From contig OX393567.1 in NCBI GenBank assembly GCA_947652115.1, forward strand, positions 16,408,786-16,472,785: a DNA stretch of 64,000 nucleotides. The letters are read 5' to 3'. Shown here piece by piece: positions 1,427 to 61,855 of the stretch. The number at the start of each line of letters is the position of its first letter. Positions within the stretch are counted from its first letter, which is position 1. Under the pieces are notes generated by a model. It worked only from the letters and a program-made list of their open reading frames with translations. It searched no databases and was not told the origin of the DNA. Source of the DNA: Blastomussa wellsi (Eukaryota; Cnidaria; Anthozoa; Scleractinia; Plerogyridae). Position numbers and translations under genes: made by a program.

Positions 1427-1460
1427 TATAAAAAGGCAAACCCTGGCGCAAGTGCATCAG
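1427..1460 (+). promoter_or_regulatory. TATA box and initiator of BRICHOS copy A
   Basis: TATAAAAAGG begins at 1427. A TCAGTT initiator-like sequence lies at 1457-1462, about 32 bases downstream, which is normal TATA-to-start spacing. A purine-rich leader of about 78 bases follows, then an ATG at 1538 and a consensus donor at 1547. The arrangement reads as a core promoter; the exact start site is inferred. Confidence 0.6.
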
Positions 1461-1537: not shown

Positions 1538-1546
1538 ATGCTGGAT
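1538..1546 (+). CDS. copy A exon 1 (three codons)
   Basis: ATG CTG GAT is followed at once by GTAAGT. The exon ends in phase 0, matching exon 2. Confidence 0.6.
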
Positions 1547-1813
1547 GTAAGTGAACGAAGAAAGTCTGAAGAAACTCTTTCACTTCATGTTCTCTCTGTG
1601 CTAATAACGGCATTTTAATGGTGTTTCCACAACATCCCACAACCTAAGATAATTTGATATATTCGAGTTCTTTATCTGATTACTCGAGTGCCAGAAATTC
1701 GTCTGGGCAAGACTTGAGACTTACTTATTTGGTTTGAGGTTCACACTTCTCCTGATTCATTGAAATTTAATCTTCTCGATGTCTATATTTGAACTGGTTT
1801 TGTTTCTTCACAG

Positions 1814-1906
1814 AAAACATCCCTTCTTAGAAGCCAGGTGGCGTTCACTTTTGTGTTGTTTCTTGCCTACCCACACTTGGCATCTGCAGATTTGGCCTCT
1901 GAAAAG
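1814..1906 (+). CDS. copy A exon 2, signal peptide
   Basis: The exon lies between a TTCTTCACAG acceptor and a GTGGGT donor, 31 codons, phase 0 at both ends. It has a basic start, a hydrophobic core (AFTFVLFLAY) and a small-residue cleavage region (LASA), as in a secretory signal peptide. Confidence 0.7.
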
Positions 1907-2316
1907 GTGGGTGTTTCCAGCGTCCATACTGATAAAACAACTTGTACCTGACGTAGAGAAATTATGGTACACAATCTATTCTTCATCTTATTTACAATTC
2001 CAGAAGCGTGGTTTCCGGCAGCTACAGAAAGCTTGACATTAATTACGTTGTTGCAATATGTGCGTTTTCTGAAATCCTGTTTGCAGTTTTCTTTAATTTA
2101 ATTTCTCCTTCTGATGGATGGGGTGGAATTTAGATATATCCTTTTCTTATTACTTAATCAACAATGCGAACCATGAGTTCACAGTACCGTAACCGAAAAA
2201 AATGGAAAGTCATCAGAGCTGTGTCTGGGCTGTGTCATCAAAACGTGTAGCCTCTTTCGTTGCAAGTCAAATGATCAATGACCTAACCCATGATTTTTAT
2301 TCGTTTCATATCTCAG

Positions 2317-2463
2317 ATTGTGGATTACAACGTTGAGTAAAGTGAGTCTGGCGAAAAATTCAACGAGACGATCGAGGTGGACACGGAGAAGCAAACAGAA
2401 AAGATTGAAGTTCCCGCACATAACGACAAGGAGAACAGCAATATCTTGCATGACTTCAAGACG
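2317..2463 (+). CDS. copy A exon 3, BRICHOS N-terminal part, with in-frame TAA
   Basis: The acceptor is ATCTCAG and the donor GTAAGA; 49 codons, phase 0. It aligns throughout with copy B exon 16643-16789, sharing IEVDTEKQTE and NILHDFKT. Codon 8 is TAA (2338-2340). The next AG acceptor at 2342 does not rescue the frame. Confidence 0.75.
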
Positions 2464-2962
2464 GTAAGACTGATCATTTATAAAAGACTAATTGGCCTTG
2501 TCATCGTAGTAATGGGTGGGTTATTTAAAAGTTTATAAAAACTGAAAATGGTTGCTGGAAGTCGAATGTTAGAATATGTAGATTTATTCCCCTCCTCTCG
2601 ATATGCAAAAATTGCGCACACACTAGAACGTGACTTTTCATTCCACCAACCGATATCTCCTCATCTGTTTTGCTGGCAGCACCAGGTTCCCTGCACTACT
2701 CAAGCTGCCATCGTATCTGTCTCTTAACTGAAGTAGCTACGTCACGATATTTTGAATCACTTTTTGTCACCAACTAAATTTCCCTTAAAATGAAGGAAAC
2801 CTAAAACTAATAGTCTACTAAGGAAAAATACACCAAAGAGGTGATAGTAAACCAAAAAAGAACAAGGATGGTTAAGGATGGAGAAGATACAGACGGATTA
2901 CAAATGACGATTTTGAAAAATTTGGGCTAACTTTTTAAAGTGTTTTATTATTTTTGCCACAG

Positions 2963-3070
2963 AATATGAGCATGCTGCTGTTACCGGAAGCAAAGATCTG
3001 TTACCTTCTGCCCCTGGAAAAACAGTTGACGATGCCAAAGAAACTCGTCAGCGACATGGATGAAGCTCGG
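2963..3070 (+). CDS. copy A exon 4, BRICHOS core
   Basis: 36 codons in phase 0, with a GCCACAG acceptor and a GTATGT donor. It contains LLLPEAKICYLLPL, the BRICHOS core around its first conserved cysteine. Confidence 0.8.
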
Positions 3071-3318
3071 GTATGTATGTAAAACACCTCGTGTGGCTCA
3101 CCACAGATTTGCTTATAATTGCAGAGTAAGTGACACTTTTTGTCGACTATCACTGGAGGTAGTTTCAATAAGTTTGGCATAAACTCGCGTATAGGGGGAT
3201 TTACTAGCGGTACGGTACATATATAATTTATATCGTGCACTGAATTGTCTGAACAGGATTTCTGCACACACCTTATCAACTCGAGAATGTAAGTTTTTAT
3301 CTATGCTTAAACTTGCAG

Positions 3319-3484
3319 GAAACCAACAGCAAAACAACAATTATTGACAACAAATGGACAATGGATAGTAAATTGACTGACCGGTCTGCACTCAGCGATG
3401 AGCTTGCGCGTTTTTGTCCAGATTACCCGATATATCACGTCAAAAAGATGGCGGACTCGATGAAGGCGACAAGGATTCAAACAG
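3319..3484 (+). CDS. copy A exon 5, BRICHOS C-terminal part, unusual donor
   Basis: It follows a CTTGCAG acceptor and contains DNKWT and DELARFCPDYPIYHVK, with the second BRICHOS cysteine. Copy B has a GT donor three bases further on. Here that position reads AGCA, so only a GC donor (ACAG/GCGAGC) would keep the frame into exon 6. Confidence 0.65.
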
Positions 3485-5251
3485 GCGAGCATTTATCTGA
3501 GTTTATTGCAGGCAAATGCAGTTTTTGCCCACCTCCTAGATATTATCAACAAAAAATTTCTCACATATATTCATGTTTTCCCCCAAATACAGTACAGAAC
3601 GCTTTCCATTTGGCCAAAAATTCCAAGCCTTTGGCTTCTGTATGCGACATACTTTAAATCGAAATTATCGCTATGAGCCGTCACATATTGCAAACTGTTC
3701 ACTTCGTACTTTTGTATGACAAAGGAAAAACAAAAACCACAACGGCAACGAAAAGGGCACCAAACAAAATGATTAATGAAGAAAAGCAAATGCCCAGCTC
3801 ACAGGATCGTCGTCTACTAAGATAGAAGTTTATAAGTGTGAGGGTGAGACTTCAAGATATACAATTTATTCTGATTGCTTTATTTCACTATATTCTCAAG
3901 TGGATAGCTTGAGTTTCATGTTCACATGGAATGCGAAATGCGTACTCGCATCCACTGTGTTGATTGTTTTCGATCTCTCGGTTAAATTTTAGGTCATTTG
4001 ACGGTTGACGGTTAATTTTTTGGAATGTCTTTTATAAAACGGAATTTAAGCGCGAATTTGGCTGTAATTTTTCTTTAAAGATTACAATTTTTCCCATATC
4101 ATTAATAATCCAGTTAATCTTATAATTTGTGCGTTAGATGACGTCATAAGATGTGATCGTATGGGTGTAAAAACACAAAATATAGCATATCTCTGCAAGT
4201 AAAGATAAAATGAAATTGAAACTTGGTGAGCATGTTATAGTCTAAGACATACATCAGATGGTGTATGTTTGGGTGTTGCTGCTATGGCAACACATCCGCT
4301 CCGAGATCTCTAATATACAGGAATGGTTATTCCTGTATTTGATCTTGAGCAAACATCGTCCACTTCCTTAAGGTTAATTAGGAGAGGTAGTGCAATAAAG
4401 GCATTGCGCACGCTTTAAATGAGATCAGTCATTTGCCCTATACAGTCACAAACGAGTAATGTTTGAGTTAAATAGGAAAGAGACTGGAACCAAGATTGTT
4501 GCCATAGCAACATCAAAATATGTATCAAGAGATGTATTTCTTAGGGTGCAATGTGCTTGCAAAGTTCCAATTGCATTGCATCAATACTTGCAGAGATGTG
4601 CCATATTTTGTGTTTTTACACCCATACTATCACACCTTATGACGTCATCAGTACCTAATTTGCATAATTCGAAAATCTTGAATATCTTTGGAACGAGAGG
4701 AGATATCACAAAAAGGAAAACGCCATTTTTCTTCGTTTTTTAAGGCCTTTCAAATAAGCTTATTTTTCAATAGCACTTTAAGACAATCGTTTAGCTCTTA
4801 ATTCAGGAAATCCGAGACATCTGACAGCTAACATTGGCTTCATTATTCGACGGTTGACGGTAAAAATATTGCGTTTTTGACGGTTAACCCCATTGAGACC
4901 CTCTTGTGTATGCCTCCATTTTTCAAGACTAAAAATGCGGATCAAGGATTTTTCTTGGGAGGGGGTGCACCACTAAGGAATGACGCAAGCCGAATACTAG
5001 ATCCGTCTTTGAGCGGAATCAATCATCGGTTTCGAAACCAAGCCACAGTGTGACAAATGTCCAGCGGTCTTCCTGGGGTACGCAAATGCCCCACCAGCGG
5101 GTCTGACAACGCAAGCAAATGCCCCGCTGTTTCCCGTGGGGGATGAGCATTGCTGGAATTGACTGATGCATAATGCACACAAATTAAAGCCCTAGAGTGT
5201 CACTGACAAAAGAGACGGCGTAATCCTATGCGTTCTTTCTTAATTTCACAG
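3485..5251 (+). other. last intron of copy A
   Basis: No exon seen. It holds an inverted-repeat element at about 4131-4655 and GACGGTTGACGGT motifs on both sides of it (about 4000 and 4850). Confidence 0.5.
4131..4655. mobile_element. fold-back (MITE-like) element with CRE-bearing arms
   Basis: The arm near 4138-4200 (TGACGTCATAAGATGTGAT, then GTGTAAAAACACAAAATAT) recurs inverted at about 4590-4647. Further inside, TGTTGC..TATGGCAACA near 4275 matches GTTGCCATAGCAACA near 4500 on the other strand. Both arms carry a perfect TGACGTCA (4139-4146 and 4640-4647). Confidence 0.7.
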
Positions 5252-5550
5252 GCACAAAGAACCGAAGGCGCCGACAGGCCATGTTACCTTCATATGGCGG
5301 CATTTCCTATCCCGAAATTGATGATTACTTACTCTGCCCTGGTGGAAAAAAACAACCTTCTCCCGAGGACATTGGATACTGTTTTATTCAAAGGAAAAGG
5401 TGGCAGCTGAAGTGCAGAGCATTAAGACGAACCTGTTATTATATTCGTGTGTGCCGATCGGCATATAATTGTTTTAGGCTGCACCTCATAAATACTGTTT
5501 ACTGTTGTGAGTACATTTGTGCTGGGCCAAATCCTGTCTATGTTAAGTAA
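5252..5550 (+). CDS. copy A exon 6, basic cleavage site and cysteine-rich C-terminus
   Basis: After a TTTCACAG acceptor the exon encodes RRRRQ, then about 90 residues with nine cysteines, including a CC pair and a CxxxC near the end. Arg and Lys are frequent. It stops at TAA 5548-5550. The cysteine spacing matches the last exon of copy B except in the first gap, which differs by one residue. Confidence 0.8.
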
Positions 5551-5837
5551 CTCTCATCTCTACAATTATCACGGTACATTGCCTAATGAACAGTACACAA
5601 ACGAATAGTATGTCTTATCTTCGAAGATTCGGAAGAAAAAAAGTTGACATCTTCTGCATCGAGTCAATTTGCTCAGTTTGAATAATTAGTTTTTCAATCC
5701 ATCAGCGGTTACATGACACTGTATTCTAAGATCGAGTCTTTGATACACTGCACGTAGTCTCTCTTCTGTTCTGAAGTCAGCGAGGAGAAGCGCGGAAATA
5801 GTGAAGCGTGAAAAACAGGTGGCCAAGCTGCGAGCTA

Positions 5838-5892
5838 CGAGTGGCGCGGGATACCACGCCACTCTTCTTCCGGCGCCCGCGCTACTCGTAGA
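5838..5892. repeat. GC-rich inverted repeat
   Basis: CTACGAGTGGCGCGGG near 5838 pairs with CCCGCGCTACTCGTAG near 5876, with one mismatch. The GC content contrasts with the AT-rich flanks, so it is probably part of a dispersed repeat. Confidence 0.6.
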
Positions 5893-6935
5893 TCGAGGCT
5901 TCCCGCTCGTGTAAGACTGAAAAGCGAGATTTCTAGCAGCATGATCTCTGTGGGGAGTGTTCCTCTAAAACTTCTGTCCATCCATTTTTCACTGTAATCA
6001 AGTTTTTCTTTTTTTAATCGAAAGTTGTGTAGCCAAGTAACTTTTTAGCAGTTGTATAGGGTATTTTGTGAGTCGAGAATTCAGACAATTCACACGCTTT
6101 TCCTCGTGAAACGAACCTCAGATCACTAAACAGCTGTATCGAGCTGTGAGCCATTGTATGCTGTAAATGAACAGCCTTGAAACGAGAATCAAGGTTTAGT
6201 TTTCTGAAAACTAAGAGTTTGTAATCGCCAACCCGGAAAGAACGCAATCAGACTGTTTTATTTTTCGGGAAATTAAACATGAGTTTATAAAGCCTGTTTT
6301 ATTTTGCAAAAAATGAAGGCTTTTTTTCTCCATGACCCTACAGGGGAGAAAATGGTTGACTTTTCTTTTCGCAAATACATTCTGAGTTTGCAGGTAACGC
6401 TTGATGATCAGATTTAGATTTACGTTGCGTCTTGTGTTTTTTTGTATGTAGATGAGTGTGTTGAAAGTAGATGTAATGATTAGATTTTCATTTATTAAAT
6501 TTTTTTTTATTTATTCTTGCTGGAAACCGAATCAAAACTAATTATGTAAGTAATATGGTCACGTTGCTTAAGCTTTCTACATTATGTTCTTGAACGTGAT
6601 TTAAGTAAGAACCTTAAGCATTAATGGGACAGTCTGCATGCAAGGCCAGAAAAACGTTCCCAGTGAGGTACTTTTGTAAGCCTGCTATATATTACTCTCC
6701 AGGAGCCCCACCTGTTTAATCGTGGTCCCTACTTTGTATGTACGCCTTATCAAGCCACTTGTAAGAATTCCTAAGCAACTATCAGTATTTGTAAGCTGTG
6801 TAATATTAAGGTTTGCTTTTATGCGCTTGTAACTAAGTACCGTTAGTAAGGCAATAAAAAAAAGAAACGAATCAAAGGGTGATACAATGTTCAGTTAACA
6901 CAATCTCTGTGATTACAACTTATTGTGGCCAGTTC

Positions 6936-6967
6936 GGGGGGAGGGGGGGGAGGGGGTGAGAGAGGGG
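6936..6967 (+). other. G-quadruplex-type G runs
   Basis: Four runs of four or more G are separated by A, A and TGAGAGA, which satisfies the usual G4 motif. The two short frames over it are low-complexity artefacts. Confidence 0.5.
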
Positions 6968-7231
6968 CAGCGGTTGAGAGCGGGCCTTCTCATATCAAAG
7001 GGAAGAAAACTACTAAGTTGTTTACCTATCGCGTTCTCTTTTCACAAACATCTCTACATCCTAAGAACATCTTCGAAAATGTTTATTCTACATTCAAATG
7101 CCACAAAAATAACTAGAGAGGAAAACTCGAAAACGCAGACAGCTAATGAATTTGAATATTAACTTTGCTGCGCTCCAGAAAGAAGCCGAAGAAACGTACA
7201 AAGGCAAGGAACTGTGTGTTAGTGCAATGAC

Positions 7232-7851
7232 TTAGGGCCTGTTTACATGGAACGAGGGTAACCCCCCCCCCCCCAGAAGGGTTACCCGGTAGGAGGGTCA
7301 ACTTTTTGTTTGTTTAAGCCATGTAAACGCTCGATGTAGGGTTACCCTCTGAGAAAAGTCGACTTTGCGAGACAACAACCTGACAGAAACCGATAAAACA
7401 GGGCTGCAACCATGGACAGCTGTTTCGTTCTTATTGGAACTCGTTGGAACTCGTCGAGTTCCAATAAGAACGAAACGGCTTTCCACGTTTGCAGCCCTGT
7501 TTTATCGGTTTCTGTCGGGTTGTTGTCTCGCAAAGTCAACTTTTTCACGTAGTATCAGCCTCGCAGTTATGTTTGTGTTACAATTTATTTTTGGCTGATT
7601 AGGTCTTGCAGATTCTACGTAACTAGCAGCATTATCGTCCGCGGTCCTTTGCAGATTTCACGTTTACCCTCTTAGGAGGGTCAAGTTTAGGGCGATCAGA
7701 TTACTGTCACATTCCCGCCGACTACAAACATTGTTGGCAGAGATAGCCCTAGGGATAACCCTTCGCATGTAAAGGAGGGCTATCTTTTGGCCCTTCTAGG
7801 AGGGTAACCCTTCTAGAAGGCTTACCCTCCTTCCATCTAAACAGGGCCTTA
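7232..7851. mobile_element. PIF/Harbinger-like MITE with TTA target duplication
   Basis: The terminal inverted repeats are GGGCCTGTTTACATGGAAC at 7235 and, inverted, TTCCATCTAAACAGGGCC ending at 7848. TTA flanks both ends (7232-7234, 7849-7851), the three-base duplication typical of PIF/Harbinger. GAGGGTAACCC motifs recur inside. An inner palindrome is listed separately. Confidence 0.75.
7351..7545. repeat. palindrome inside the Harbinger-like MITE
   Basis: The arm from about 7351 to 7440, including GACTTTGCGAGACAACAACC and CGATAAAACAGGGCTGCAA, returns inverted between about 7452 and 7541. The centre lies near GGAACTCGTCGAGTTCC. The overlapping 60-77 residue frames on both strands mirror this palindrome and are not genes. 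Confidence 0.8.
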
Positions 7852-8304
7852 CTGCCGTTAATTTTACAAAGGAAATCCTGAAATTGTGAAGTGCGGAATA
7901 ACTAATAAAACCGATGAAAGTATTACAGTTTATCTATGTTGGCTCTAAGTTATGAATATCATGCAAACCCTTGCCTCACATCTCCAGCTTCGTAGATGTA
8001 TCAGTATTGAAGGTAATTTGATACTTTTTCGGGTCAATTTATATTTAATAAGACACGCAAGCGCAGTAGCAGTAGCCACGAAGATGATAATCGATATACT
8101 TGGCACAATTAGCTGAAAATGGCCGAGGTAATTAGTATGGAAGAAAATAAAGAAAATATCTTACCTCTATATCCGATCTAACCTAGTTCGGAAGTTTTGG
8201 GGCCTCTCTCTTGCCGTAAAAATTACAGATAACCCAAGCATAATGTGTATCTAAATGGCGACCTGTAACACAAGACCATACAAGCACATCATTTGCATAT
8301 AAAT

Positions 8305-8854
8305 GGCGACCTCTCAAAAGATAAGAGTTTGTACGAGTTTTAAATGCGAAACTTTAAAGCAAGAAATTTAAGAGAAATTAATAAATAAAGTTGACGAAAC
8401 ACATCAAGGTGTTGTTTGTAATCGCTACAAAGTGTTTGCAACGAATTTAGAGCCATTTTCAACGTCTATACACCTTATTCCAAAAACGAGGCAAGAAGGG
8501 CTAATTTGAATACAAACAAAAGAATATTAAGATGGTAGCCATTTTAAGGTGTATTAATTTACTGAATTGGGTGTATAATAACATGACAAGGTAGGGAGTT
8601 CAGGCGCTTCTGCACGGGACACTTGTCGAAATTGGCTCGAATTTCACCCCCAAAAAATAGTTTTGGCCCAAGTTCTGACTTCACATCTTTATCAAGGCAT
8701 AAACACCCGACTGCTCTTTTGAAAACTGCTTGTTCTTACCTCATAATTCTCAGCAAGTAGGCGCTTCCAAAATTCCAAAATTCGTTTCGAAATGGCCGCC
8801 ACAACGTCCGAGATGCCCACGTACTCAAAATGAACTGGACACAAGTCAAATCCA
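8305..8854. repeat. dispersed repeat, copy 1 (partner at 21054-21900)
   Basis: Blocks such as GTTGACGAAACACATC, GTGTTGTTTGTAATCG, GAAATTGGCTCG and TCTGACTTCACATCTTT occur in the same order here and near 21.1-21.9 kb. This copy is split by a small MITE at 8469-8553. Confidence 0.65.
8469..8553. mobile_element. short Tc1/mariner-like MITE, internally deleted
   Basis: It begins TACACCTTATTCCAAAA and ends ATTTTAAGGTGTA, with TA at both ends. The inner GGGCTAATTTGAAT and CAAAAGAATATTAAGATGG are shared with the fuller copy at 18263-18434. Confidence 0.6.
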
Positions 8855-9238
8855 ATTCTCGTACCCAGAGCCGCTTGTCCCTCTTAGCTGGCTAGGCCTG
8901 TGCACTAGAATGCAACTGGGACTGGAGAGAGGGGCACGATATTTTTGATGGGAGTGTCCCATTCTTCCGCTTGTCCCTCTTAGCCGGCTGGGCCTGTGCA
9001 CAAGGAAAACGTGGCTCTGGGGACACATGATTGGATTGGCTAGAATCTGACAAAGGGAGTCCAATAACATCAGCCGTTCCAAAAATCCCTTTGACATAAG
9101 ATAGTTTAAAACAGCTAATGTGATTGGACTGCCTTTGTTATCTTCTAGCCAATCAAATCATGTGTTCCCTTGGCCACTTGTTCTTGTGCACAGTCCCAGC
9201 TGGCTAAGAGGGATAAGCGGCTCTGGGGACGAGAATGG
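8855..9238. mobile_element. MITE of the CTCGTCCCCAGAGCC family, copy 1
   Basis: The left end reads ATTCTCGTACCCAGAGCCGC and the right end GCGGCTCTGGGGACGAGAAT. The left terminal region is duplicated in part (CCGCTTGTCCCTCTTAG near 8872 and 8969). Related copies lie at 18721-19012 and 24689-24930. The frames over it are not genes. Confidence 0.7.
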
Positions 9239-10555
9239 GAGTGACCATTCATCACTCAGTTCATTTGTTCACTACATGAACTGAGTGTTACATGGTATAA
9301 TATGTCATCAAATGTCTCACCAGAAGGACTGAGTGCAGAATATTTTTGACCGCGCTTGAAATTGTTTTCTTCTACCAAACAGTGAGGATAAAATTATCGT
9401 TTTGTTTACATCGCCACGGCGACTCCTTTAGCAAGCCATACAAATCACCGGGAGAGGAACAAATCCACCTTTTACAAATCCACCTTTCACAAATCCAGTC
9501 CATGTTTTACAAATCCAGTCCAGTCCACTCCACTCCAGTCGATATTTTACAATATGCCGGCTGGTTTCCCTTTCCGTACCATTGTTTCCTCCGTCAACAC
9601 CTACAATTACAATCTTGGGTCTTAATCAAAAGAAGTTTTTATCAAGATGGAGTTGTACCCGACAGGCTTGATACTGAAAAGAGCATTTATATGCATCTGT
9701 ACCTTTCTCATACTTTTACTAAATATAAGTCTTTGTTTGCGCTGCTCACTAGTCTTCATTAACAAAAGTCACTTGCTCATTTACAAATTATAGTCAGTCT
9801 CTACGATTTTCAAACTCTACTATCGACGATTGCGTTCCTCACTGTCGTCAGTCATCTGATGGGACCGTTTCCACAGTTCGCTTCAACAGGCTCTAACGAT
9901 TAATTCAGTGGGTTGTGGTTGTTTCTTTCTTCTTCTTTTTATTTATTTTTTTTTCCTTGGGTCGTTTCTGACGGTTTTTTCTTTAGAGTGCGCAAGCACG
10001 TTAAATCTCGCGCCTGGATTTAGCTCTTATAAAGGGCCCGCAAACACATGCAACTGCCAAAATATAAAATTCAGTTTGGCAGAATATTTATTCTTGTGAT
10101 CTTACCTGCCAGTCTGCAGTTAGCCTTTTCCAACTGCCAAGAGGGTATATATTTAGAAGGAGCGAAATCATCAAATTATCAAAAGAAATTTTCAAAACTA
10201 CAGTTGTTAGGCCCGTTGACAGCACGAACAGACTGATGCAATTCACGTGATGGGCGCAGTAAGCCATCGTTAGGTAATAATGACTAAATTCTTTAAAATG
10301 GGTCAGAAGCTGGAGATCTGAGAAGCACATACCCAACGAAAACCTAACTGAGCCTAAAACAGGGGGAGAAAATAAATAATTCTGCTCACTAAAATGGAAG
10401 TACTGCCTTTCCTATAAAATTACTTACAGCTTACAAAAACTAAACTAAAAACGACAAGATATACCTATTACATGGGAAAAAATGAAAAGAAACACTCGAG
10501 CTACTACAAAATCACGCTTTTTATTCGTACGTTAGTTTTGTGTACGATAAACAGA
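9239..10555. other. intergenic, no gene seen
   Basis: It contains a short direct-repeat tract near 9450-9550 (repeats around ACAAATCCA and CAGTCCA). AATAAA on the minus strand (10520-10525) is about 35 bases past the GPCR stop and is the likely poly(A) signal for that gene. Confidence 0.4.
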
Positions 10556-11491
10556 TCAGTTAGGCTGTGGATGCACAGCTTGGGTTTTAATGCGAAAAAC
10601 AAACTGTCTCATTTCTTTCTGTCTCCAGCAGTAGATTAATGGGTTGAGGAGAGAGTTCAACATGACAAACGTACGTGACCATGGGCACAACGCGCAAGTG
10701 TCCAGTATTTCTAAGTCTAGATTTGCAAAATTTCGAGCTAAAATGTGTATAGCCGATGGCAAGAGACATAACATAACAGCGCCGACAACAAACACAGTTG
10801 TCTTGAGCGCTTTGCTCTCTTTAGCGAATCTCTCCGCTTCTTCTTGCGGCAGCTGCTGAGTTTTGATCATCTTCTGATGGCGAAGTGTTTCACGATACAA
10901 TATTGCGTAAGAAGTAGAAATGAAAAGAACACACGAAATAAGAACTACTGGTACTAAAAGTTGTACAAATACTACTAAGCCTGAACTCCACTTAACAAAT
11001 TCACAGAAAAGAACAAAACTCCAAGATGCGATCACTGCAACCTTAATTTTTTGCGATGTGACAATGTAAGAGTAATGCATGGTAAATTTAATCGCTATAA
11101 GCCTCTCGCAAGTAACTAACATCAGATGAAGCGATGAACAAACCGACAAGGCGCGTATAAGAGAGTTATGGAAACCACCAACTGTGTCAGTCACATTGTA
11201 TGTCATACCAAGTAGCTCAAATGTTTGCCACAGGATGAGCGATGGCTGTGCTGTCAGACCAGTTAATGCATCAGTCGCCGCTAAACAGGCCAGCAAGATG
11301 TTGGTGTAACTCTTGAGTCTTAGTCTTCTTTTCACGGCCATTATCACCAGCACATTAAGCAGAACTGCCAATGGACAAGTGATGCTGTTAATGATGATGG
11401 TGATTATCAAATTTACTTCCCTCGTTCCATAATCATTTGATAAAAGACCGGTTCGGTTCGAGGTAAAATTTAGCTCGGTGAACTTGCCCAT
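10556..11491 (-). CDS. class A (rhodopsin-like) G-protein-coupled receptor, single exon
   Basis: 311 codons from the ATG at 11491. An upstream in-frame ATG at 11566 exists, but this start is preferred because homology to the inverted copy carries a stop just upstream. The short N-terminus has sequons NFT and NRT. Seven hydrophobic segments are visible. Landmarks are N in LLNVLVI (TM1), LAATD (TM2), CERLIAI in place of DRY (TM3), the Trp of ASWSF (TM4), CLLP in place of CWxP (TM6) and NPLIYCW (TM7). The second extracellular loop is very short, and the usual TM3-loop disulphide cysteines are not evident, as in melanocortin/adenosine-type receptors. The ligand is unknown. It lies between the two BRICHOS copies on the opposite strand. 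Confidence 0.85.
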   Translation of the reverse strand: MGKFTELNFTSNRTGLLSNDYGTREVNLIITIIINSITCPLAVLLNVLVIMAVKRRLRLKSYTNILLACLAATDALTGLTAQPSLILWQTFELLGMTYNVTDTVGGFHNSLIRALSVCSSLHLMLVTCERLIAIKFTMHYSYIVTSQKIKVAVIASWSFVLFCEFVKWSSGLVVFVQLLVPVVLISCVLFISTSYAILYRETLRHQKMIKTQQLPQEEAERFAKESKALKTTVFVVGAVMLCLLPSAIHILARNFANLDLEILDTCALCPWSRTFVMLNSLLNPLIYCWRQKEMRQFVFRIKTQAVHPQPN

Positions 11492-13524
11492 ATTCGAAAG
11501 ACGACTGATCCAAAGGGTTTGAAGTTTACTTGAACTCGGCTGAAATGCCTTTTTTATACCGATCACTGTATTTAAAATGTGTCCAAATGTTTTCGGAAGT
11601 TGTTTTCACATGAAGAGTAACTTTTAGGCAAATGAATTAATTTAGGAAATTCGTTTGTTGTTTAAAATTTCATTTTGCTGTTAGTGTTAATTTCGTTGAT
11701 TTAATTCCGGCACCAAATTACTTTCTTACTGCCTGAAGTTAATTGCAGATATCAATTACTCGATCACTGATGTGCTGTCATAAATATGTTTAACAAGACA
11801 AATACTTCTTCGGACGAAAATTAATAACTCAATTGAAGACCGATTACAAGATGGAATTAAAGAAAATTGGAACATGTGACTAGACCTTTGTTTTCTCGTG
11901 CAGAGTTTTGGGGTAATCAGTTAATTTATCATTTCAAAAATTCACTTTCTGATTTAAAGTCTATTTTTCTGAGATATTTTTAACTTACTTAATTACGTTC
12001 CACCAATTTAATTTTTATTACTGTTAAAAATTTATTAGTAATTCTTCATAACCCGGTGTTCATTTCTTTCCGATCATATGAATCATCTTTTCGGGCAAAA
12101 TAATACACAATAAATTAATTAATAATTTAGACCGGCTATTCAGGTCGGTTGAAGTACTAAGGAATGCCGATTGAATTATAAGCTATAGAAATAAAAACAA
12201 ACCTGAATATTTTGCTGGGATAAAACATTAATATGTCGTCTGACGAACACGGATACACCTTCACCTTGAGTTCTGTTGGTAATTTACTGACACCGTTCAC
12301 ATCATAGTTGATAGACAGAACTGCCGGTTTTGAAGCACGGCAAAGTTCTTTGCTGTATGTGTTTGCTCGTTATTTTGGGGGTTTGCAGTGCACAAAAACC
12401 AGGCAAAATACAATGAGCGATTACATATTGTAACAGATAGAAACATTGCGATTATGTAATAGTCATGCGCAAAACAAAAGATGTGCGGTGTCGTGTACCT
12501 TCTAACATAAATCGTGTCCTCTTCGTTAGCTCCTTTCACGTTTTCCGAGCTTCATAAACATTTTCCACTATTAATTACGGTTCACGTTAATTAAAAATCT
12601 CTATTATATGGCGTTGGTTCACTGTGCGGTACCCGAGTTTTGCAATATAGAAGGCAAAAATGAACCGCTCACAAACTATAGTTTCGGTTTGCTCTTTCAA
12701 AACACTGCTCACTGTTCTTCGATTTTTTTTATCTTCATGTCTGGTCGAAATTCAATTTTCGGTTAAACTTTCCCGAGAATTACGTGAGAAACACAATTAT
12801 ATACTAAATTACAAACATTCTTTACCCGAGAATGGATCGAGAAATAAATTTAGCAGCAGAGTTTTTATAAAAGCCGTGCATTTTAATGAACATTTTCTTG
12901 AACTAGCTTTTTTGGTTTGAGAGAATATTGGCAAAATAGACTATATACATTTTTTACTGTAACATCTTGCTTTCAAGTTGGGCTTTTGAACTAAGTTTTT
13001 TTACTGAAATCGGAACTAGAAATTTGGCTTGAAACCTTATTTTATAAGTCGATTCTAGTAAAGAATCGCCGAAATTAAAGTTAGTAATTAATAATTGATG
13101 TGAAGGCTATTTGTTCAAATTAATTCAGTCCTCTAATTCCCAGCTTACAGTTAACTTTTATTTCCCAAGTCCTAAATATACGATGAATTAGTTTTCGTCA
13201 AAAAATGTGATTCACAAACAAGTTAATGGCAACGTCTAAACGCAAAATGAGATATATTGGCAATTCAATAATTTGTCATTCGATTATAGCAAAGTTATTT
13301 TGGTGAATTCAATTAACGAAATTAATAATCTCAGGAAAATAAACTTTCAAACATAAGCGACCTCTGTTAATTATCTGCTTGGCCGAAAAAGTTACTCTGC
13401 ATGATATGGGGTAAACACATTTCCAAAACATGGGCACACTTACATCTTAATACAAAAGTACGACCACAAACACCATTTAGCCAAGCTTTAGTAAACTTCA
13501 AACACTTTAAATCAATTTCCGAAC
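11492..13524. other. AT-rich spacer between the GPCR and its inverted copy
   Basis: No exon or RNA gene is recognised. It presumably holds the GPCR promoter on the minus strand, but no TATA box stands out. The frames here are short and lack family features. Confidence 0.4.
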
Positions 13525-13911
13525 ATGGCAACTTCACCGAACGAGCTTAATTTTACCTCAAACAGAACCAATCAATTTATTATGGAATGAAGTAAGTTTG
13601 ATCATCATTAACAGCATCTAACGTGCTGGTGATAATGGCCGTGAAAAAAAGACCAAGACTCAAGAGTTACACCAACATCTTGCTGGCCTTTTTAGCGGCG
13701 ACTGATGCATCAACTGGTCTCACAGCACAGCCATCGTTGCGGCATCCTGTGAAAACCATTTGAGCTATACATGTACTTGGCATGACCTACAATGACTCTT
13801 ACGATATGGTTCGCACGTGCACGTCTTTTCGCAACTCTTTTTTTTCATCGCTTCATCTGATGTTAGTTACTTGCGAGAGGCTTATACCGATTAAATTTAC
13901 TATGTACTACT

Positions 13912-14279
13912 AATTCTTTGTTCAAAGGCGAAACATTGGACAGCAGAGTGATCGTTCTTAAGCTTTAGATATTTTCGCTTTCTTGTGAGGTATGGTAAGT
14001 AGTATTTCAAGTCGCGTCAGTTCGTCTTTTTCTAATTTCATCATATCATATCATATCATATCATATCCTTTATTTAAACACGATAAAATTTAAAGCTAAA
14101 GCTTGTGGGGTCGTGTAAAAAATAGTTACAATATGAAACGATGTTAAAATATGGATAAAATTACTCATACAACTAACATGAATGTACAATTAATTCCTAA
14201 AAAGAGTAATATTTAAATAAGTTCGCGTAACTACATCTAAATAAAAATAACTGCTAATTTCGTCTTCTTCAGTGGACTC
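13912..14279 (-). mobile_element. insertion in GPCR pseudogene, non-LTR retrotransposon tail likely
   Basis: Read on the minus strand, the middle ends TAAATAAAGG followed by about five GATAT-type pentamers (14036-14067 on +). A short tandem repeat after AATAAAG is the usual 3' end of CR1/L2-type LINEs. It replaces part of the receptor rather than only interrupting it. Confidence 0.45.
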
Positions 14280-14584
14280 TTCTTAATTACGCAATATTGT
14301 ATCGTTACACTTGGCCCGTCAGAAGATGATCAGAACGCAACAGCTACTAGGGAAAGATTCGTGAAAGACAGCAAAGCGCTCAAGACAACAGTGTTGGTAG
14401 TCGTTGCTAAGGTGTTGTGTCTTTTGCCTGCGGCTTTTGAGATTTTTGCTCGAAATGTTGTAAAGTTAAACTTAGAAGTGTTGTAAAGTTAAAAGTGTTG
14501 TTAGAAGTGTTGTAAAGTTAAACTTAGAAGTGTTCGCAAGTTGCGCGTTATACCCATGTGTCCGTAGGTTTGTCATGTATGATG

Positions 14585-14940
14585 TTAAGACGGAATCCGC
14601 CAAGACTTCTAGTATTTATTGGACAAAATTATGTAGCAAAATGATTTACACCTTATTGCAAGCTTTGTGTTACTGCTTCCAATATCTTATCAAGAGAAAT
14701 CTTTTCTAACAACAGCAAACATCGAAAACAAATTTCGAAGTTCCACTTTTCTCAAGCTCTGATAAGAAATTGTTGTACCAAAATTATTTACACCTTATTG
14801 CAAACGTTTGTGTTACTGCTTCAAATATCTTATCAAAAGAAATCTTTTCTAACAACACCAAACATCGCAAACAGATTTTTACTCGATTTTTGTCCAACCT
14901 AGATAAATATTACTCGACTTCCTGATGGATTCCGTCTTAA
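14585..14940. mobile_element. TTAA-flanked MITE (piggyBac-like)
   Basis: The ends are TTAAGACGGAATCC at 14585 and the exact inverse GGATTCCGTCTTAA ending at 14940, so TTAA flanks both sides. Removing it restores the GPCR alignment. Inside is an imperfect direct repeat of about 110 bases (about 14638-14745 and 14770-14877) sharing GATTTACACCTTATTGCAA and TTTCTAACAACA. A related single end lies at 27094. Confidence 0.65.
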
Positions 14941-15547
14941 ACTCTCTCCTTAATCCTTTAATTTATTGCTGGCGAAAGAAAGAGATAAGGCAATTTTTTT
15001 AGAATTAAAACCCAAGCCGTGCATCCGCTGGCTAACTCATAAAAAGTGAAACTCGAGCAAAGCTAACGAATACTATGTGTTAGTAATAAAAAATATTTTA
15101 AAGTTATTAACAAGTGTTTTCACACTTTCTTTTTATGTAATGCCTAGGGTGTGGTGTATCTCGTTTCTTGTTGTTGTTGTAAATTATAGGTTTTTTCGCT
15201 CGGTAACGGTCAATGTTACTTTCATTTTAGCGAGCAGAATTATTTATTTCAGTTTTGCAGCAACAAAATGCTGACCTTTTCTCGGGCATGTTCATCTTGT
15301 TTGCAAATCTTTGTTCCTTTTTGCCAGTTTTGATTTCGGTTGCACTTTCCGGCAGCACGGTATTTCCTTAGATCTCTGGCATATCATGTTATCTTGTTTG
15401 CAAAACTGGATGCGGGAACAGCACTAGAGAGTCTGACCCCTCTAAAAAGGTGAGTTCAGTTTTCAGGGTAAAAAAGGCATCCATGCATGGGCATTAAACC
15501 GGTATATTATGAGAAAGACGTTTGCAATTGGCACGCTTTAATATTTA

Positions 15548-15648
15548 GCAATTATTGAATGAGGCTGAGTAGGATATGAAGAATTCTGCAGATCAAGGAG
15601 AGATCTGCAGAATTCTTCATATCCTACTCAGCCTCATTCAGTAATTGC
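15548..15648. repeat. near-perfect hairpin, 47-base arms, 7-base loop
   Basis: The left arm 15548-15594 pairs with 15602-15648 with one mismatch. The loop is AAGGAGA. The arms contain GAGGCTGAGTAGGATATGAA and its inverse. No TE end or target duplication is obvious. It could be a small-RNA hairpin precursor or a simple inverted duplication. Confidence 0.75.
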
Positions 15649-15762
15649 TTTATTATTCATTCAAAATATTTCCCCGTTCTTAAAGGAGTTTCGCCATTTC
15701 GCCCTCTGTTTTTCTGCTCACCCAAAATAACACAATCTCGTTCCCAGGTTTTCTCGGTCAAC

Positions 15763-15860
15763 GGTTCAATAATCTGCAGCGGGCTGCACTTTTGACGTCA
15801 TTGGTTCAATAATCTGCAGCGGGCTGCACTTTTGACGTCATCGATTCAATAATCTGCAGC

Positions 15861-15890
<30 letters not shown>
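15763..15890. repeat. three tandem 40-bp units, each with a CRE palindrome
   Basis: The unit contains TTCAATAATCTGCAGCGGGC and CACTTTTGACGTCAT, with an exact 40-base period. TGACGTCA occurs at 15793, 15833 and 15873. The copies differ at only a few bases, so the array is recent. CREB/ATF binding is possible but not shown. Confidence 0.8.
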
Positions 15891-15896
<6 letters not shown>

Positions 15897-16473
15897 AAGA
15901 TTCTTTCCAAATCTGGTGAACAGCTGCTGGTTATCGTGAATTACAGAAACGGGGAAATAATGAATAACAATGAAACTTATGCAATTCAAAAATAGTTTGC
16001 CGACTAAAACTTGTAAGTACGCACGCTGTAGGTTATGGTCAAGGCACACGAGTAGCACGCAATGAAGAATACGATTAAGCAGACTGTAGGGTTTTTTATT
16101 AGGTTTCTTCCAACTGCTGTTGCCCGAATTCTGAGCGTTTTGCCCGAAAAAATGTCCACAATTTTCGAAACTGGGGGCGGCAGCCCTCTCGATTCCCTGG
16201 CTCGTGTGTGGGAAAGTTCTCTCGCTGTTAACGTCTTTCTTTATTTCAAATAACCCGTCATTTCTTTTCCTGATTTTTCATTGTTATTTCAGCAGTTTTA
16301 GGCCGTTTCTAAAATATGTTAAATGTTGAATTGATTGAGAGAGATTTCTTCAGAATTCTTATTTGTACTTCTCTCGCCCTTCCAGGAATCGGGGTGAAGT
16401 TTGCAAAGTAATATGTTTAGTCTGTGGTAAAGAAGAAAGCTGTCTTCTATTTGCTTATGTTACTCAGCAGTAT

Positions 16474-16641
16474 TTTCTTTGGAAAATATAAAGCCTTAGT
16501 CCACCAGCTGGTTGAGGAAGTTATAAACTGACTCATGGTTATTCGCTGCATACCTCATTTCTTTGGAAAATATAAAGCCTTAGTCCACCAGCTGGTTGAG
16601 GTAGTTATAAACTGACTCATGGTTATTCGCTGCATACCTCA
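16474..16641. repeat. 84-bp tandem duplication at the copy B acceptor
   Basis: 16474-16557 and 16558-16641 are identical but for one base (GAGGAAG against GAGGTAG). The second unit ends in CATACCTCAGG, the acceptor of exon 16643. The first ends CATACCTCATT and has lost the AG. Confidence 0.85.
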
Positions 16642-16642
16642 G

Positions 16643-16789
16643 GTTGTGAAATTTAACGTTCAAATCACCGAGTCAGGAGCACAATACAACGAGATGATCG
16701 AGGTGGACACAGAGAAGCAAACCGAACTGTTTAAAGTTCCCGCTCATAATAACGTGGATCATAGCAATATTTTGCATGACTTTAAGACG
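16643..16789 (+). CDS. copy B exon, BRICHOS N-terminal part
   Basis: 49 codons in phase 0, between a TACCTCAG acceptor and a GTAAGC donor. It contains IEVDTEKQTE and NILHDFKT, and has no stop where copy A has TAA. Confidence 0.85.
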
Positions 16790-19700: not shown

Positions 19701-22700
19701 GAACATGAGCTTGCTGCTGTTGCCTGAAAAGAAGATCTGTTACCTTCTGCCCCTGCATGACAGGCTGTTGACGCCAAGGCAACTTATAAGTGACATTGAT
19801 AAAGCTGAGGTGAGGCCGTGCAACTAACCGTACCGAGAACTGCGCTTTATAGCGGAGCTCCGGAGCGCGCTCTAGCGGAGCACCTTGGGTAAGCATTTTT
19901 GGAAACCCATAAAACCGAGAAATTTGGTAGTCACGTGACCTAAGAACGTCCGTCCGTGTGTACAGACTCTGGTAGACTGTTCCAGGCGTTCGGTTAGTGG
20001 GAAACTGCGCGAAGGAAAACGGCGAACGAAAACAATAGTGTATACGTAAAGGCCAGCTAGTGTCTGCGGTTGTGGCTGCCTTGTGCTACAGAAACCGGAG
20101 TTACGTGTCCGTTCTTGTGCACAGCTGAGCTTTACCACTAATTTGCGTGCATCTCATCATTGAAATATTCAGCATAATACATGTATTTGCTTATTGACAG
20201 AGTAGTTTTGGATATGTCACATGTAATAGAAATTCTTCTCACCACTCAGATTTTACTCGACTGCCGAGGACGTATATAACCCTTAGGCATGCTTACGTCA
20301 GCCAAGCCTCACTTTCGAAGTGCAAACTTGTAAATTTCTAGTGAAGGAATTCCCAAAGCAGCAAAGATTAAATGAATATCGGCCCTCGATGCAATAATTC
20401 GCGTAAACTAGGCTTCGAAGTGAATTTTGTACATATATCGCTATCATGCATTAGGCCCTATCTGACAAGTTCTTGATCTCTGCTCATCGTTACAGAAAGC
20501 AAATAGCCCTATCAGAGAGACGAGGATTATTAACAACAAGTGGACAGCGAGCAGTGAAGTCACTGACCGTTCTGTGCTCAGTGACGAGTTGGCAAATTTT
20601 TGTGCAAATTACCCGATTTACAAAGTGAAAATGATGGAGGATTCTCTCAAAACCACAAGGATTCAAACAGGCGGTGAGAAAACTGATAAATTTCAGTGTA
20701 AACCCAGTCTGATCACAGGTACACCAAGCATAAAATTCTTGACCTCTGCTCATCGTTACAGAGAGCAAATAGCCCTATCAGAGAGACGAGGATTAGTTCG
20801 CAATTTAACGGGTTAATTTATTTTTCGTTGTTTTCCTTATTACTTTTTCTTGTCAGTAACTGTGCTCACATCGTGGGTGGCTCCACCTGAAATGTTCTGC
20901 AATTGGTATAGGATTTAATGGAACCGAAACCAATTGTGGAATTACAAGCATTTTAGGCATCCTACTGATGAACGGTTATGGCAATTAGATATTTATTGCA
21001 GGAGCCAACGTTGAGATTGTGGTCTGTCGCCTTTGAATTTGTATGTAAAGGGCGGCCAGTAAAAATATAAGATGTTTGGGTTTTACACGCGGAGCTTTTA
21101 AGGCAAGAAATTAAAGAGAAGGTAATAAATGGCTAAATGAAGTTGACGAAACACATCGAGGTGTTTCGAGGGGTGTTGTTTGTAATCGTTACGAAGTGTT
21201 TGCAAGGAATTTAGAGCTATTTTTAACGTATAATTATATAGCTACATCAAAATCCATTATTGTCAACAGATGCATTTTTTATTAATTTTTGCCAACTGTC
21301 CAAATTTAAAATAAATTGGACAGTTTTTGTTCAAACTGTCCAATTTAAGAAAAATCTGGATACCTTCCATAAACCAATCAATTGTCAAGAAAAACTAGTT
21401 TGTAGGGCGAACTATTTGCCATGTTCATACATTTTTGGATGCTATATAATTAATAGGTAACAGGACTACATGCTTGTCCAATTTGGAAATAAGTGGATTC
21501 CAAAAAATTCCTCGAACTGCCAAATTGGACTCGGCCTACGGCCTCGTCCAATTTCGTAGTCCTCGGAATTTTTTCTCATCCAATTATTTTCAAATTGGAC
21601 AGCATGTAGTGACTAACTGTGCGCCGTGTATAATAAAACGTGACAAGGCAGGAGAGTTCATGGCACGTGTTGAAATTGGCTCGGATTTTACCCACAAAAC
21701 TAGTTTTGGCTCTAATTCTGACTTCACATCTTTGTCATCAAAGTATGACACACGAATGTTTTTTTTTTTCTAACTCCTTGCTCTTACCCCGTAATCCTCA
21801 GAAAGTACTGGGCCTTTTCTGAAAATCCAAAATGGTTTCGAAATAGCCTCCACGACCGTAACGGAAGTTCCACAATGGACTGGACACTAGTCAAATCAAG
21901 CCCCAACCGGGAGGACATGATATTTTTTATCGTTCTTCTACCATACGATGAGGACAAAACTGTTGCCGTGGACGATGTAGCAAAGCGTACTTTGTTTTAT
22001 TATCCAGCAAATTGTCACTTTGCCAATGATGGTCATGAAGCGATTGAGTGACAGATATCCTGCGATATACGTTAAGTTATGACAATTCGGCCGAGTCTCG
22101 CAAAACGTAGCATAACGGCAACTTTTCTAACTGTAAAATACACTTCGTTGACAATCTTGCGGAATATAGACTGATTTTTACTTAGCTAACTCGGCCTACT
22201 GCCTCGTCGGCTAAGTGTCAGGCGATACTCCGCGCGATTTCTCATGATAATTGTTAATTGTCCTCCCGCCCACATCCTTGTCGTTGTCTTATTAATAATG
22301 TTTAGTTAATAATTTATGTAAATCGAAAATTATTTAGTGTTACCTAACGCTGTTTGCACGGGGCCGGACCGAACCAGACCGGATCGGGTCATCTTCTGTT
22401 TACATAGAGCCGTTTGGAACCAACCCGGGTGTTTACACTGGACGTTTATGGAGCCGGTCCAGCACGGATCCACTGGACATGCAAAACGTCAGGTCCCGTT
22501 TTTGTTTAGATCCGTTCCGGACCTGTTCCAGAACGATCCCGTGTAAACAGAAGGCCTATCCGGTCCAATTTACATGTACAGACCAGCTCCATTTGGATCC
22601 CGGCGTTTGAAACCGGTCCCTTATAAAAATGACCTAAACGTGGTGGGAAATGAATTGTAAATCATGGTGTAAAAGCTGCCAGATGCCAATGTTGTGGCTG

Positions 22701-23360
22701 TGTGGTGGTTTAGAAGACAACATAATCCTATTTGAAAGCGAAGAATGATCATCGCAGAAAAAATCAGGGCGAGCCCGTGACCTCAGTTCAAATATGGATC
22801 ATTTCATATACTTCACGTTTCACTCCTCACGGGAAAATATATGAACTCAATAAATTGACCTCGCTACCAATGTGTGTCTTCATAGCTCAGTTGGTAGAGC
22901 AGCGCACCGGTATCGCGAAGTCACGGGTTCGAATCCCGTTGAAGCCCTAATTTTCCAGGCTTCTTATTTGTGCTTATTTCCAATTGCTTAAATTGGAAAT
23001 TCACTGCGATGATCATTCTTCACTTTCATCTACGTCCGCAGTTCAAATATGAATTATTTCATCATAATCATATTTCTTTCTTCTCTTTTAACAGGGACAA
23101 AAAGTCGAAAACGTCGAGAAGAAGTTTACGCTCCGCAGTATCCAGTCATTGAACCTGACTTCCTGTGCAATGGTGGAAAGGCCGAAGTCTTACCAGGGGA
23201 CTTTTCCAGCTGCGTTGTTTTTCAAGGGAAAGCCTGGCAAGTGAAATGCAAGATATATACCAGTACTTGCTATAAGATTAAGGTGTGCCGTTCATTTGAT
23301 TACTGTTACGAAAATCACCTCCGGAATAATATGTACTGTTGCGAATGGATTTGCGTTTGA
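16643..23360 (+). CDS. BRICHOS-domain secreted peptide precursor, copy B (5' exons not found)
   Basis: Four intact exons are joined in phase: 16643-16789, 19702-19809, 20496-20673 and 23095-23360 (699 bases, 233 codons including stop). They encode a full BRICHOS domain with its two cysteines (CYLLPL and NFC). A basic processing site RKRR follows, then a C-terminal part with nine cysteines ordered as in copy A. All donors are GT, and no stop interrupts. Phases match copy A exon for exon. AATAAA at 23674 would end the transcript. No signal exon or promoter is visible nearby, so the 5' end is open: it may be diverged, or supplied by copy A exons 1-2, which end in the right phase. Known family role: chaperone-type propeptide for a C-terminal mature peptide. 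The antimicrobial reading is inference. Confidence 0.82.
17886..17941. repeat. imperfect hairpin
   Basis: CACTATCTAT and ATAGATAGTG face each other, and the flanks extend the match imperfectly (GGCTACACTACC against GAGTAGCGTAGC). It lies just before the ATG of the small frame at 17955. Confidence 0.6.
17955..18209 (+). pseudogene. possible Crypton/KIAA1958-type N-terminal coding remnant
   Basis: An 84-codon frame starts MAAASSRFRNVREEDLDSLL and continues with EKTKVATTSRFILKQL. This resembles the SRF..(E/D)LxxLL..NTKxAT..F N-terminus of Crypton-derived tyrosine-recombinase proteins. A donor-like GTAAAA follows SKSK. No recombinase catalytic domain is seen downstream, so it is a fragment or a lone exon. 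The family call is tentative. Confidence 0.35.
18263..18434. mobile_element. Tc1/mariner-like MITE
   Basis: TA flanks inverted repeats CACCTTATTCCAAAATGGC and GTCATTTTGGAATAAGGTG. Inner sequences TTGTTGTCTCGTT and AACGAGACAAGAAGGGCTAA also mirror each other. Confidence 0.75.
18521..19180. mobile_element. outer MITE interrupted by a second element
   Basis: The ends are ATGGTTGCTTACCATTTACC at 18521 and, inverted, GTAAATGGTAAACAACCAAT ending at 19180. The body is split at 18721 by another MITE. Confidence 0.7.
18721..19012. mobile_element. nested MITE of the CTCGTCCCCAGAGCC family, copy 2
   Basis: The left end is ATTCTCGTCCCCATAGCCC and the right end GGGATATGGGGATGAGAATG. The flanks ACCTACGC (18713-18720) and CCCTACGC (19013-19020) could be an eight-base target duplication with one change. 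It sits wholly inside the 18521-19180 element, so it inserted later. Confidence 0.7.
19702..19809 (+). CDS. copy B exon, BRICHOS core
   Basis: 36 codons in phase 0, acceptor TTTCTATAG, donor GTGAGG. It contains LLLPEKKICYLLPL. Confidence 0.88.
19810..20495 (+). other. copy B intron
   Basis: No exon or clear repeat recognised. Confidence 0.4.
20496..20673 (+). CDS. copy B exon, BRICHOS C-terminal part
   Basis: 178 bases, acceptor CGTTACAG, donor GTGAGA. It contains NNKWT and DELANFCANYPIYKVK, with the second BRICHOS cysteine. Its first 35 bases and the acceptor are duplicated at 20736-20796. Confidence 0.87.
20736..20796 (+). repeat. partial duplicate of the copy B exon start and its acceptor
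   Basis: 20470-20530 and 20736-20796 match nearly base for base over the intron end (TCTGCTCATCGTTACAG) and the first 35 bases of the exon. The copy then diverges and has no donor. Confidence 0.85.
21054..21900. repeat. dispersed repeat, copy 2 (partner at 8305-8854)
   Basis: It shares ordered blocks with 8.3-8.85 kb (GTTGACGAAACACATCG, GAAATTGGCTCG, TCTGACTTCACATCTTTG, GGACTGGACAC). It is interrupted between about 21.23 and 21.63 kb by unrelated fold-back DNA. Confidence 0.6.
21463..21613. mobile_element. fold-back element around CTTGTCCAATTTGG
   Basis: GACTACATGCTTGTCCAATT at 21463 faces AATTGGACAGCATGTAGT ending near 21611. Inner copies of CCAAATTGGAC and a GGCCTACGGCC palindrome lie between them. 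Confidence 0.65.
22350..22550. mobile_element. GC-rich MITE-like inverted repeat
   Basis: CTGTTTGCACGGGGCCGG at 22350 is mirrored by GATCCCGTGTAAACAG ending at 22550. Degenerate GGACCGG/CCGGTCC motifs fill the inside. Confidence 0.5.
22876..23085 (+). mobile_element. tRNA-derived SINE
   Basis: A tRNA-like head (22876-22947) has a D-arm/A-box TAGCTCAGTTGGTAGAGC and a B-box GGTTCGAATCCC. It lacks a clean anticodon loop and has an acceptor-stem mismatch, so it is not a tRNA gene. The body includes CCAGGCTTCTTATTTG, a CAATTGCTTAAATTG palindrome and CCGCAGTTCAAATATGAA. A related tail precedes it at about 22780. It ends about ten bases before the copy B splice acceptor. Confidence 0.75.
23095..23360 (+). 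CDS. copy B last exon, basic site and cysteine-rich C-terminus
   Basis: The acceptor is CTCTTTTAACAG. RKRR is followed by about 80 residues with nine cysteines, including CKIYTSTCYKIKVC and YCCEWIC, and TGA at 23358-23360. The intron just upstream ends in a SINE. Confidence 0.87.
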
Positions 23361-61514: not shown

Positions 61515-61579
<65 letters not shown>

Positions 61580-61780
61580 CTACTCCTACTCCTACTCCTA
61601 CTCCTACTCCTACTCCTACTCCTACTCCTACTCCTCCTACTGCTACTGCTACTGCTACTGCTGCTGCTGCTGCTACTGCTACTGCTACTGCTACTGCTAC
61701 TGCTGCTGCTGCTGCTACTGCTACTGCTACTGCTACTGCTACTGCTACTGCTGCTGCTACTGCTACTGCTACTGCTACTG

Positions 61781-61855
<75 letters not shown>

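Follow-up and report, generated by a model that had tools for sequence, protein, structure and literature searches.

A tandem array of BRICHOS precursor genes with a predicted nine-cysteine C-terminal peptide in the stony coral Blastomussa wellsi

BRICHOS is described in PMC9714404 as a chaperone propeptide that guards a strand-forming peptide until a convertase frees it. General BRICHOS precursors such as ITM2B/BRI2, chondromodulin, tenomodulin, and OAF carry a signal or anchor segment, the BRICHOS cysteine pair, a convertase site, and a C-terminal stapled hairpin (PMC9714404). The annelid BRICHOS antimicrobials arenicin, alvinellacin, capitellacin, and nicomicin have a layout of signal, BRICHOS propeptide, convertase site, and disulfide peptide (PMC6265681, PMC9714404), and nicomicin is short and cationic, with 33 residues (PMC6265681). 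Among corals, 238 BRICHOS sequences from 15 species were reported with strong heat induction (PMC5299404), two BRICHOS genes were among the most induced in early heat stress (PMC8590396), and two BRICHOS proteins of Pocillopora settlers were predicted to be antimicrobials (PMC12960093, 2026). Here, we analyzed a stretch of 64,000 nucleotides from Blastomussa wellsi (assembly GCA_947652115.1, contig OX393567.1, positions 16,408,786 to 16,472,785; hereafter the window), in which two tandem BRICHOS precursor copies each end in an exon coding for a nine-cysteine peptide. The genome comprises 368 Mb, and the contig that holds the window is labeled C10 here.

The published coral genes are stony-coral BRICHOS proteins and, we infer, probably belong to the same family at large as those in the window. 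Excerpts of these studies take the product to be a chaperone or predict it to be an antimicrobial, and in two of the studies the genes are among the strongest heat responders; the excerpts contain no account of a peptide domain, of its cysteine framework or fold, or of an array. No description of the nine-cysteine domain was found in excerpts of open-licence full text, a scope outside which most subscription papers lie. A preliminary description of the locus had suggested an undescribed cnidarian family, with a known annotated family of the same cysteine pattern as the alternative. Coral BRICHOS genes are already described. The last exon with its nine cysteines encodes a domain that is conserved, and neither window copy of it reaches any Pfam cut-off. 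The coral genes share with the general precursors the cysteine pair, a predicted convertase site, a predicted hairpin, and, in some copies, a putative signal segment, and differ from them in the predicted nine-cysteine helix plus hairpin, the tandem array, and the strong divergence of the peptide, a comparison made by description as regards chondromodulin, tenomodulin, and OAF.

The two copies comprise the following features. Exon 4 of copy 1 was placed from sequence and a hidden Markov model (HMM), and the TATA box, exon 3 of copy 1, and exons 3 to 5 of copy 2 from sequence.

1427..1434, + strand: TATA box of copy 1 (TATAAAAA)
1538..1546, + strand: copy 1 exon 1, start codon and M-L-D, followed by a GTAAGT donor; N-termini in the family read MLDQ..
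1814..1906, + strand: copy 1 exon 2, predicted signal segment, hydrophobic by reading of the sequence alone
2317..2463, + strand: copy 1 exon 3, first BRICHOS part, with an in-frame TAA at 2338-2340
2963..3070, + strand: copy 1 exon 4, BRICHOS, first conserved cysteine (KICYLLP)
3319..3484, + strand: copy 1 exon 5, BRICHOS, second conserved cysteine (RFCPDYPIY), followed by GC, not GT
5252..5550, + strand: copy 1 exon 6, RRRRQ site, then the nine-cysteine peptide, net charge +7 after the site
16643..16789, + strand: copy 2 exon 3, first BRICHOS part, stop-free
19702..19809, + strand: copy 2 exon 4, BRICHOS (KICYLLP)
20496..20673, + strand: copy 2 exon 5, BRICHOS (NFCANYPIY), with a GT donor
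23095..23360, + strand: copy 2 exon 6, RKRR site, then the nine-cysteine peptide, net charge -1, predicted helix plus hairpin

The presence of BRICHOS in both copies, as first described, was borne out by the Pfam model PF04089, which matched the joined exons of copy 2 with an expectation value (E) of 7.9e-10 and exons 3–5 of copy 1, read past its stop, with E 9.8e-10, both above the 25-bit cut-off. The HMM matched 36 of the 39 alignment members (a count only); the fragment P0038 and both last exons of the window gave no match. In a search of solved-structure sequences, the sole match at E <= 1 was the ITM2B BRICHOS domain (E 1.6e-5; 6.2e-6 with a 17-row profile), and a profile match to ribosomal uS10 (E 0.71) was ignored. 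Both copies have the BRICHOS cysteine pair (KICY; FC..YPIY) in columns that are each at least 90% conserved, the bond itself being predicted. D92 of P0001, within the motif HDFK, is invariant in 17 of 17 rows and is a candidate for the conserved strand-end aspartate of PMC9714404. The last exons open with a polybasic site, RRRRQ in copy 1 and RKRRE in copy 2, and its RR is invariant in the 17 aligned coral rows; it is a predicted proprotein-convertase site, at which cleavage is likewise predicted.

Both last exons have nine cysteines in one shared order, which together with the polybasic opening agrees with the initial reading of the locus. A typical spacing is C-x14-C-x10-C-x6-C-x5-C-x5-C-x10-CC-x3-C. 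In the copy 2 last exon the cysteines are at positions 24, 39, 51, 58, 64, 70, 81, 82, and 86. All nine are present in 38 of 58 rows, a table that scores alignment gaps as absent cysteines, includes the shortened models P0023, P0027, P0028, and P0081, and leaves out the fused models P0055, P0056, and P0068. The copy 2 last exon was modeled with a mean predicted local distance difference test (pLDDT) score of 90.0 from 38 aligned sequences, with a helix at 33-42 and strands at 47-64 and 70-86. The confident prediction is thus of a long antiparallel hairpin of two strands, stapled by disulfides, together with a short helix; cysteines 64 and 70 flank the hairpin turn. A model of the whole Oculina protein came out poorly (mean pLDDT 56.6).

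Cysteines 51 and 82 are both present in 41 rows, both absent in 13, and mixed in 4 (agreement 54/58), and joint absence occurs in both subfamilies. The Fisher P value for this co-occurrence (3e-9) overstates the association because the rows are related. Because of this joint presence and absence and the register of the hairpin, 51 and 82 probably form a disulfide. Pairing of 24 with 81 and of 39 with 86, which would leave 58 free, is a guess: three rows (two being shortened models) have neither 24 nor 81, and in one row 58 is the only cysteine missing. The odd number of cysteines leaves one for a possible dimer bond.

No convincing counterpart of this peptide was found. The copy 2 last exon had no match at E <= 10 among PDB sequences, Foldseek and VIA-align searches with the predicted fold gave no usable match, and five proteins had no match in NCBIfam. 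Weak fold matches to ribosomal proteins, pore-toxin hairpins, and growth factors were treated as chance. CD59 appeared weakly for 3 of the 39 members (best E 0.023), but a three-finger fold was rejected because the model has just one hairpin, with a helix.

The peptide had been characterized as rich in lysine and arginine, which holds for copy 1 (net charge +7 after the basic site, isoelectric point 9.0) and not for copy 2 (-1, isoelectric point 5.7). Copies C and D, described below, have net charges of 0 and +3, and the values span -4 to +16 across the aligned rows. Arenicin, alvinellacin, and capitellacin are short and cationic. With 80-91 residues, nine cysteines, and charges of -1 to +7 in these four copies, the coral peptide differs from the annelid antimicrobials and does not fit a short, cationic type.

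A search with copy 2 returned 54 proteins (E <= 1, 169 candidates) and one with the 17-row profile returned 89 (E <= 0.01, 5,191 candidates). The named sources are all stony corals (Oculina, Pocillopora, Stylophora, Montipora, Acropora, Desmophyllum, and Porites); the range may be wider, many rows being contigs without a source name. A tree of 36 BRICHOS halves, from which P0033 was left out, has two groups (support 100/99), the array type and a second type that also occurs on contig C20 of this genome. The backbone within the array type is poorly supported. The fused gene models P0055 and P0056 are among the relatives and suggest that tandem copies also occur in Pocillopora and Stylophora.

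The locus had been described as a tandem pair. It is tandem, and the pair is part of a longer array. The copy 1 last exon matched six places in the genome (E <= 1, the weakest with E 0.09): both copies of the window, three places upstream of it, and another at a distance of 1.2 Mb. With 40 kb of upstream sequence read, the array has five copies, the window pair and three more within 32 kb upstream, and copy D is separate on the same contig. Upstream coordinates are relative to the window, with 0 as its last preceding base and negative values further up.

-31457 to -29072: copy A, with exon 4 interrupted by a stop and a frameshift in the last exon
-24951 to -19677: copy B, with a last exon recognizable in part only
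-11553 to -5045: copy C, exon 2 to the end without an internal stop, with GT-AG sites
C10:15.23 Mb, opposite strand: copy D, exon 2 to the end without an internal stop, with GT-AG sites

A hydrophobic exon 2 was judged by reading to be present in copies A–D. Copy C has a candidate exon 1, ATGCTACAC|GTAAG, with a TATA box and leader 5' of it like those of copy 1; exon 1 of copy D was not found. Read from their exons, copies C and D are better-preserved relatives than the window copies.

The window copies run from an ATG at 1538 to a stop ending at 23360, as originally noted, and their joined exons stay in frame, yet neither is demonstrated as a full gene because copy 1 is damaged and copy 2 has no recognizable signal exon. 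Copy 1 is probably a decaying gene or pseudogene, because it has the in-frame TAA in exon 3 and no GT donor after exon 5, where it reads CAG|GCGAGC; in copies 2, C, and D a GT donor lies at this point or three bases further along. The TAA may be a fixed change, an allele, or an assembly error, each being possible from the assembly alone. An in-frame acceptor at 2346/2347 that would bypass the stop lacks a pyrimidine tract and was judged unlikely. The four recognizable exons of copy 2 (3 to 6) are all clean, and no signal exon was recognizable in the 11 kb that separate it from copy 1 (5551-16642; best plus-strand match E 0.10). The initial reading that both copies have signal and BRICHOS exons joined to the last exon was thus upheld for the BRICHOS exons of both copies and for a recognizable signal exon in copy 1 only. 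The beginning of copy 2 exon 5 and its acceptor recur as a short duplicate just 3' of that exon (window ~20745-20800), and a tRNA-Thr (GGT) lies within the last intron of copy 2 (window 22876-22947, + strand; ARAGORN and Rfam concordant).

BRICHOS genes are numerous in this genome, since a hand-written exon-5 query matched 20 places at E <= 1 (13 with E below 0.001), spread over nine contigs; such counts are lower bounds. The Pfam BRICHOS model gave no match in a whole-genome search, which takes one exon at a time, and this domain is encoded by several exons; 14 control genomes were silent too. More distant BRICHOS-like exons of the type V.KYKVK...AGEVDI.YDFK occur, partly clustered, at loci L034-L040 (contigs C12, C2, C4, and C9), and another cysteine-rich frame lies near one of them (L034, 3607-3696). 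Locus L036 (contig C12) has a weak match to a BRICHOS exon 5 (9344-9147, minus strand, E 0.005) and, at ~8826-8659 on the same strand, an acceptor-like site followed by a frame with SKRG and a 44-residue, Trp/Arg-rich tail with eight cysteines and a net charge of +6. This tail looks antimicrobial by its composition.

A third BRICHOS family is represented by L041 and L042 (contigs C1 and C22) and has 22 relatives, the named ones all from stony corals; one member checked against Pfam BRICHOS matched at 2.1e-8. Among 16 of the 22 that were examined, 15 have seven cysteines and all 16 have R-x-x-R before or near the first. By order and spacing, we read these seven as the nine-cysteine framework minus 51 and 82. 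When pairs are binned by BRICHOS identity, peptides of the third family are more conserved than those of the array families in all six bins, of which the top one contains only two pairs; in the 45-55% bin, for example, the values are 44% and 31%. The first binning of the array families included the fused models, and a recount left them out. The higher conservation in each bin suggests that the third family has an older role under tighter constraint, alongside copies that diversify.

Divergence is concentrated in the peptide half. Among 49 proteins, with P0055, P0056, and P0068 left out, identity is lower for the peptide than for BRICHOS in 1,173 of 1,176 pairs (median 33.8% vs 55.6%), and with the fused models included in 1,276 of 1,326. 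P0010 and P0012 are 98% alike in BRICHOS and 62% in the peptide.

With somewhat better than even confidence, we propose that these genes encode secreted, convertase-cleaved, BRICHOS-chaperoned hairpin peptides that are most likely defensive. The signal-like segment of copy 1 and its neighbors would send the precursor to the secretory pathway, the BRICHOS domain would keep the strand-prone peptide from aggregating while its disulfides form, and a furin-like convertase would cut at the polybasic site opening the last exon and release the hairpin, whose job would most likely be host defense against microbes, competitors, or overgrowth. Defense is considered most likely because the tandem array has decayed copies and the peptide exon diverges far more than the BRICHOS exons. 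The layout shared with annelid BRICHOS antimicrobials, the L036 tail, and the published heat induction (PMC5299404, PMC8590396) were also counted for defense. The choice between defense and signaling posed at the outset thus has more evidence on the defense side, for a peptide that is not generally cationic. Several points weigh against this proposal. Neutral and acidic peptides (0 in copy C, -1 in copy 2, and as low as -4 among rows reaching +16) are unlike the annelid antimicrobials, heat induction is equally compatible with a stress chaperone, and defensive activity is here predicted only. Part of the divergence contrast is general, because in the third family, too, conservation is lower in the peptide than in BRICHOS, for 117 of 120 pairs. 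The ratio of nonsynonymous to synonymous substitutions (dN/dS) among copies 1, 2, C, and D is 0.24-0.37 in BRICHOS and 0.22-0.57 in the last exon, below 1 in both halves for all six pairs; these averages give no sign of positive selection, a weak null because dS is near-saturated in the last exon. Since dS is higher there (1.0-2.7) than in BRICHOS (0.5-0.8) and dN/dS is below 1, gene conversion of BRICHOS can account for some of the contrast with no need of positive selection. The contrast itself is real, and homogenization of the BRICHOS exons may contribute to it as much as peptide selection does.

An endogenous signaling or tissue-regulating ligand, with paralogs diversified for tissues or receptors, would account for the neutral or acidic charge of many peptides and for the third family, with its R-x-x-R, its seven-cysteine core of the same order, and a peptide more conserved in each bin. 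Growth-factor folds are also among the weak, non-significant fold matches, and such a ligand would work like the mature part of chondromodulin, tenomodulin, or OAF. The signal or anchor, convertase site, and nested-cysteine hairpin are, moreover, general BRICHOS features (PMC9714404). We nevertheless regard a ligand as unlikely, as a tandem array with decayed copies and strongly divergent peptides on near-identical BRICHOS domains would be unusual for a ligand of a fixed receptor. It is less probable still that the secreted BRICHOS domain is itself the product, a heat-induced extracellular anti-aggregation chaperone with the tail as a fast-drifting self-client; BRICHOS is the conserved half, and coral BRICHOS genes go up in warming (PMC5299404) and early heat stress (PMC8590396). 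Against this, the polybasic site is retained, and nine cysteines kept in 38 of 58 rows, with two lost jointly in 13, argue that the tail is under structural constraint. Least probable, and to our minds very unlikely, is a venom or anti-predator component. The peptide is disulfide-rich, variable between copies, tandemly repeated, and secreted by prediction, the usual look of venom families, but the window exons have no significant toxin-family match, the sole toxin model among the matches listed having E 0.28, below its cut-off. The SCRiP neurotoxin family is likewise small, cysteine-rich, and from stony corals, a likeness by description only (PMC10892658, PMC2652719).

Within the proposal of chaperoned defensive peptides, a wider picture is possible, and we put it forward tentatively. 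Stony corals would have a variable secreted arsenal in which one conserved, perhaps conversion-homogenized BRICHOS front end escorts a fast-changing nine-cysteine helix and hairpin of no catalogued family, related to the seven-cysteine form by gain or loss of disulfide 51-82. The promoter and signal exons of copy 1 could even splice, in phase, to the intact exons of copy 2. The named domain, its framework, the likely disulfide, and the better-preserved neighboring copies provide concrete peptides to make and test, and a possible link between the coral stress response and peptide defense.

Other features of the window include a rhodopsin-family receptor between copies 1 and 2, encoded as a single open frame at 10559-11605 on the - strand (Pfam 7tm_1, E 1.5e-20). 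Frames resembling parts of such a receptor lie on the + strand near 13635 and at 14241-14486. An RGS-domain protein is encoded at 35601-36695 on the - strand (E 1.9e-22), and a long simple-sequence tract at ~61510-61970 gives runs of Ser, Leu, and Thr in frames on both strands.

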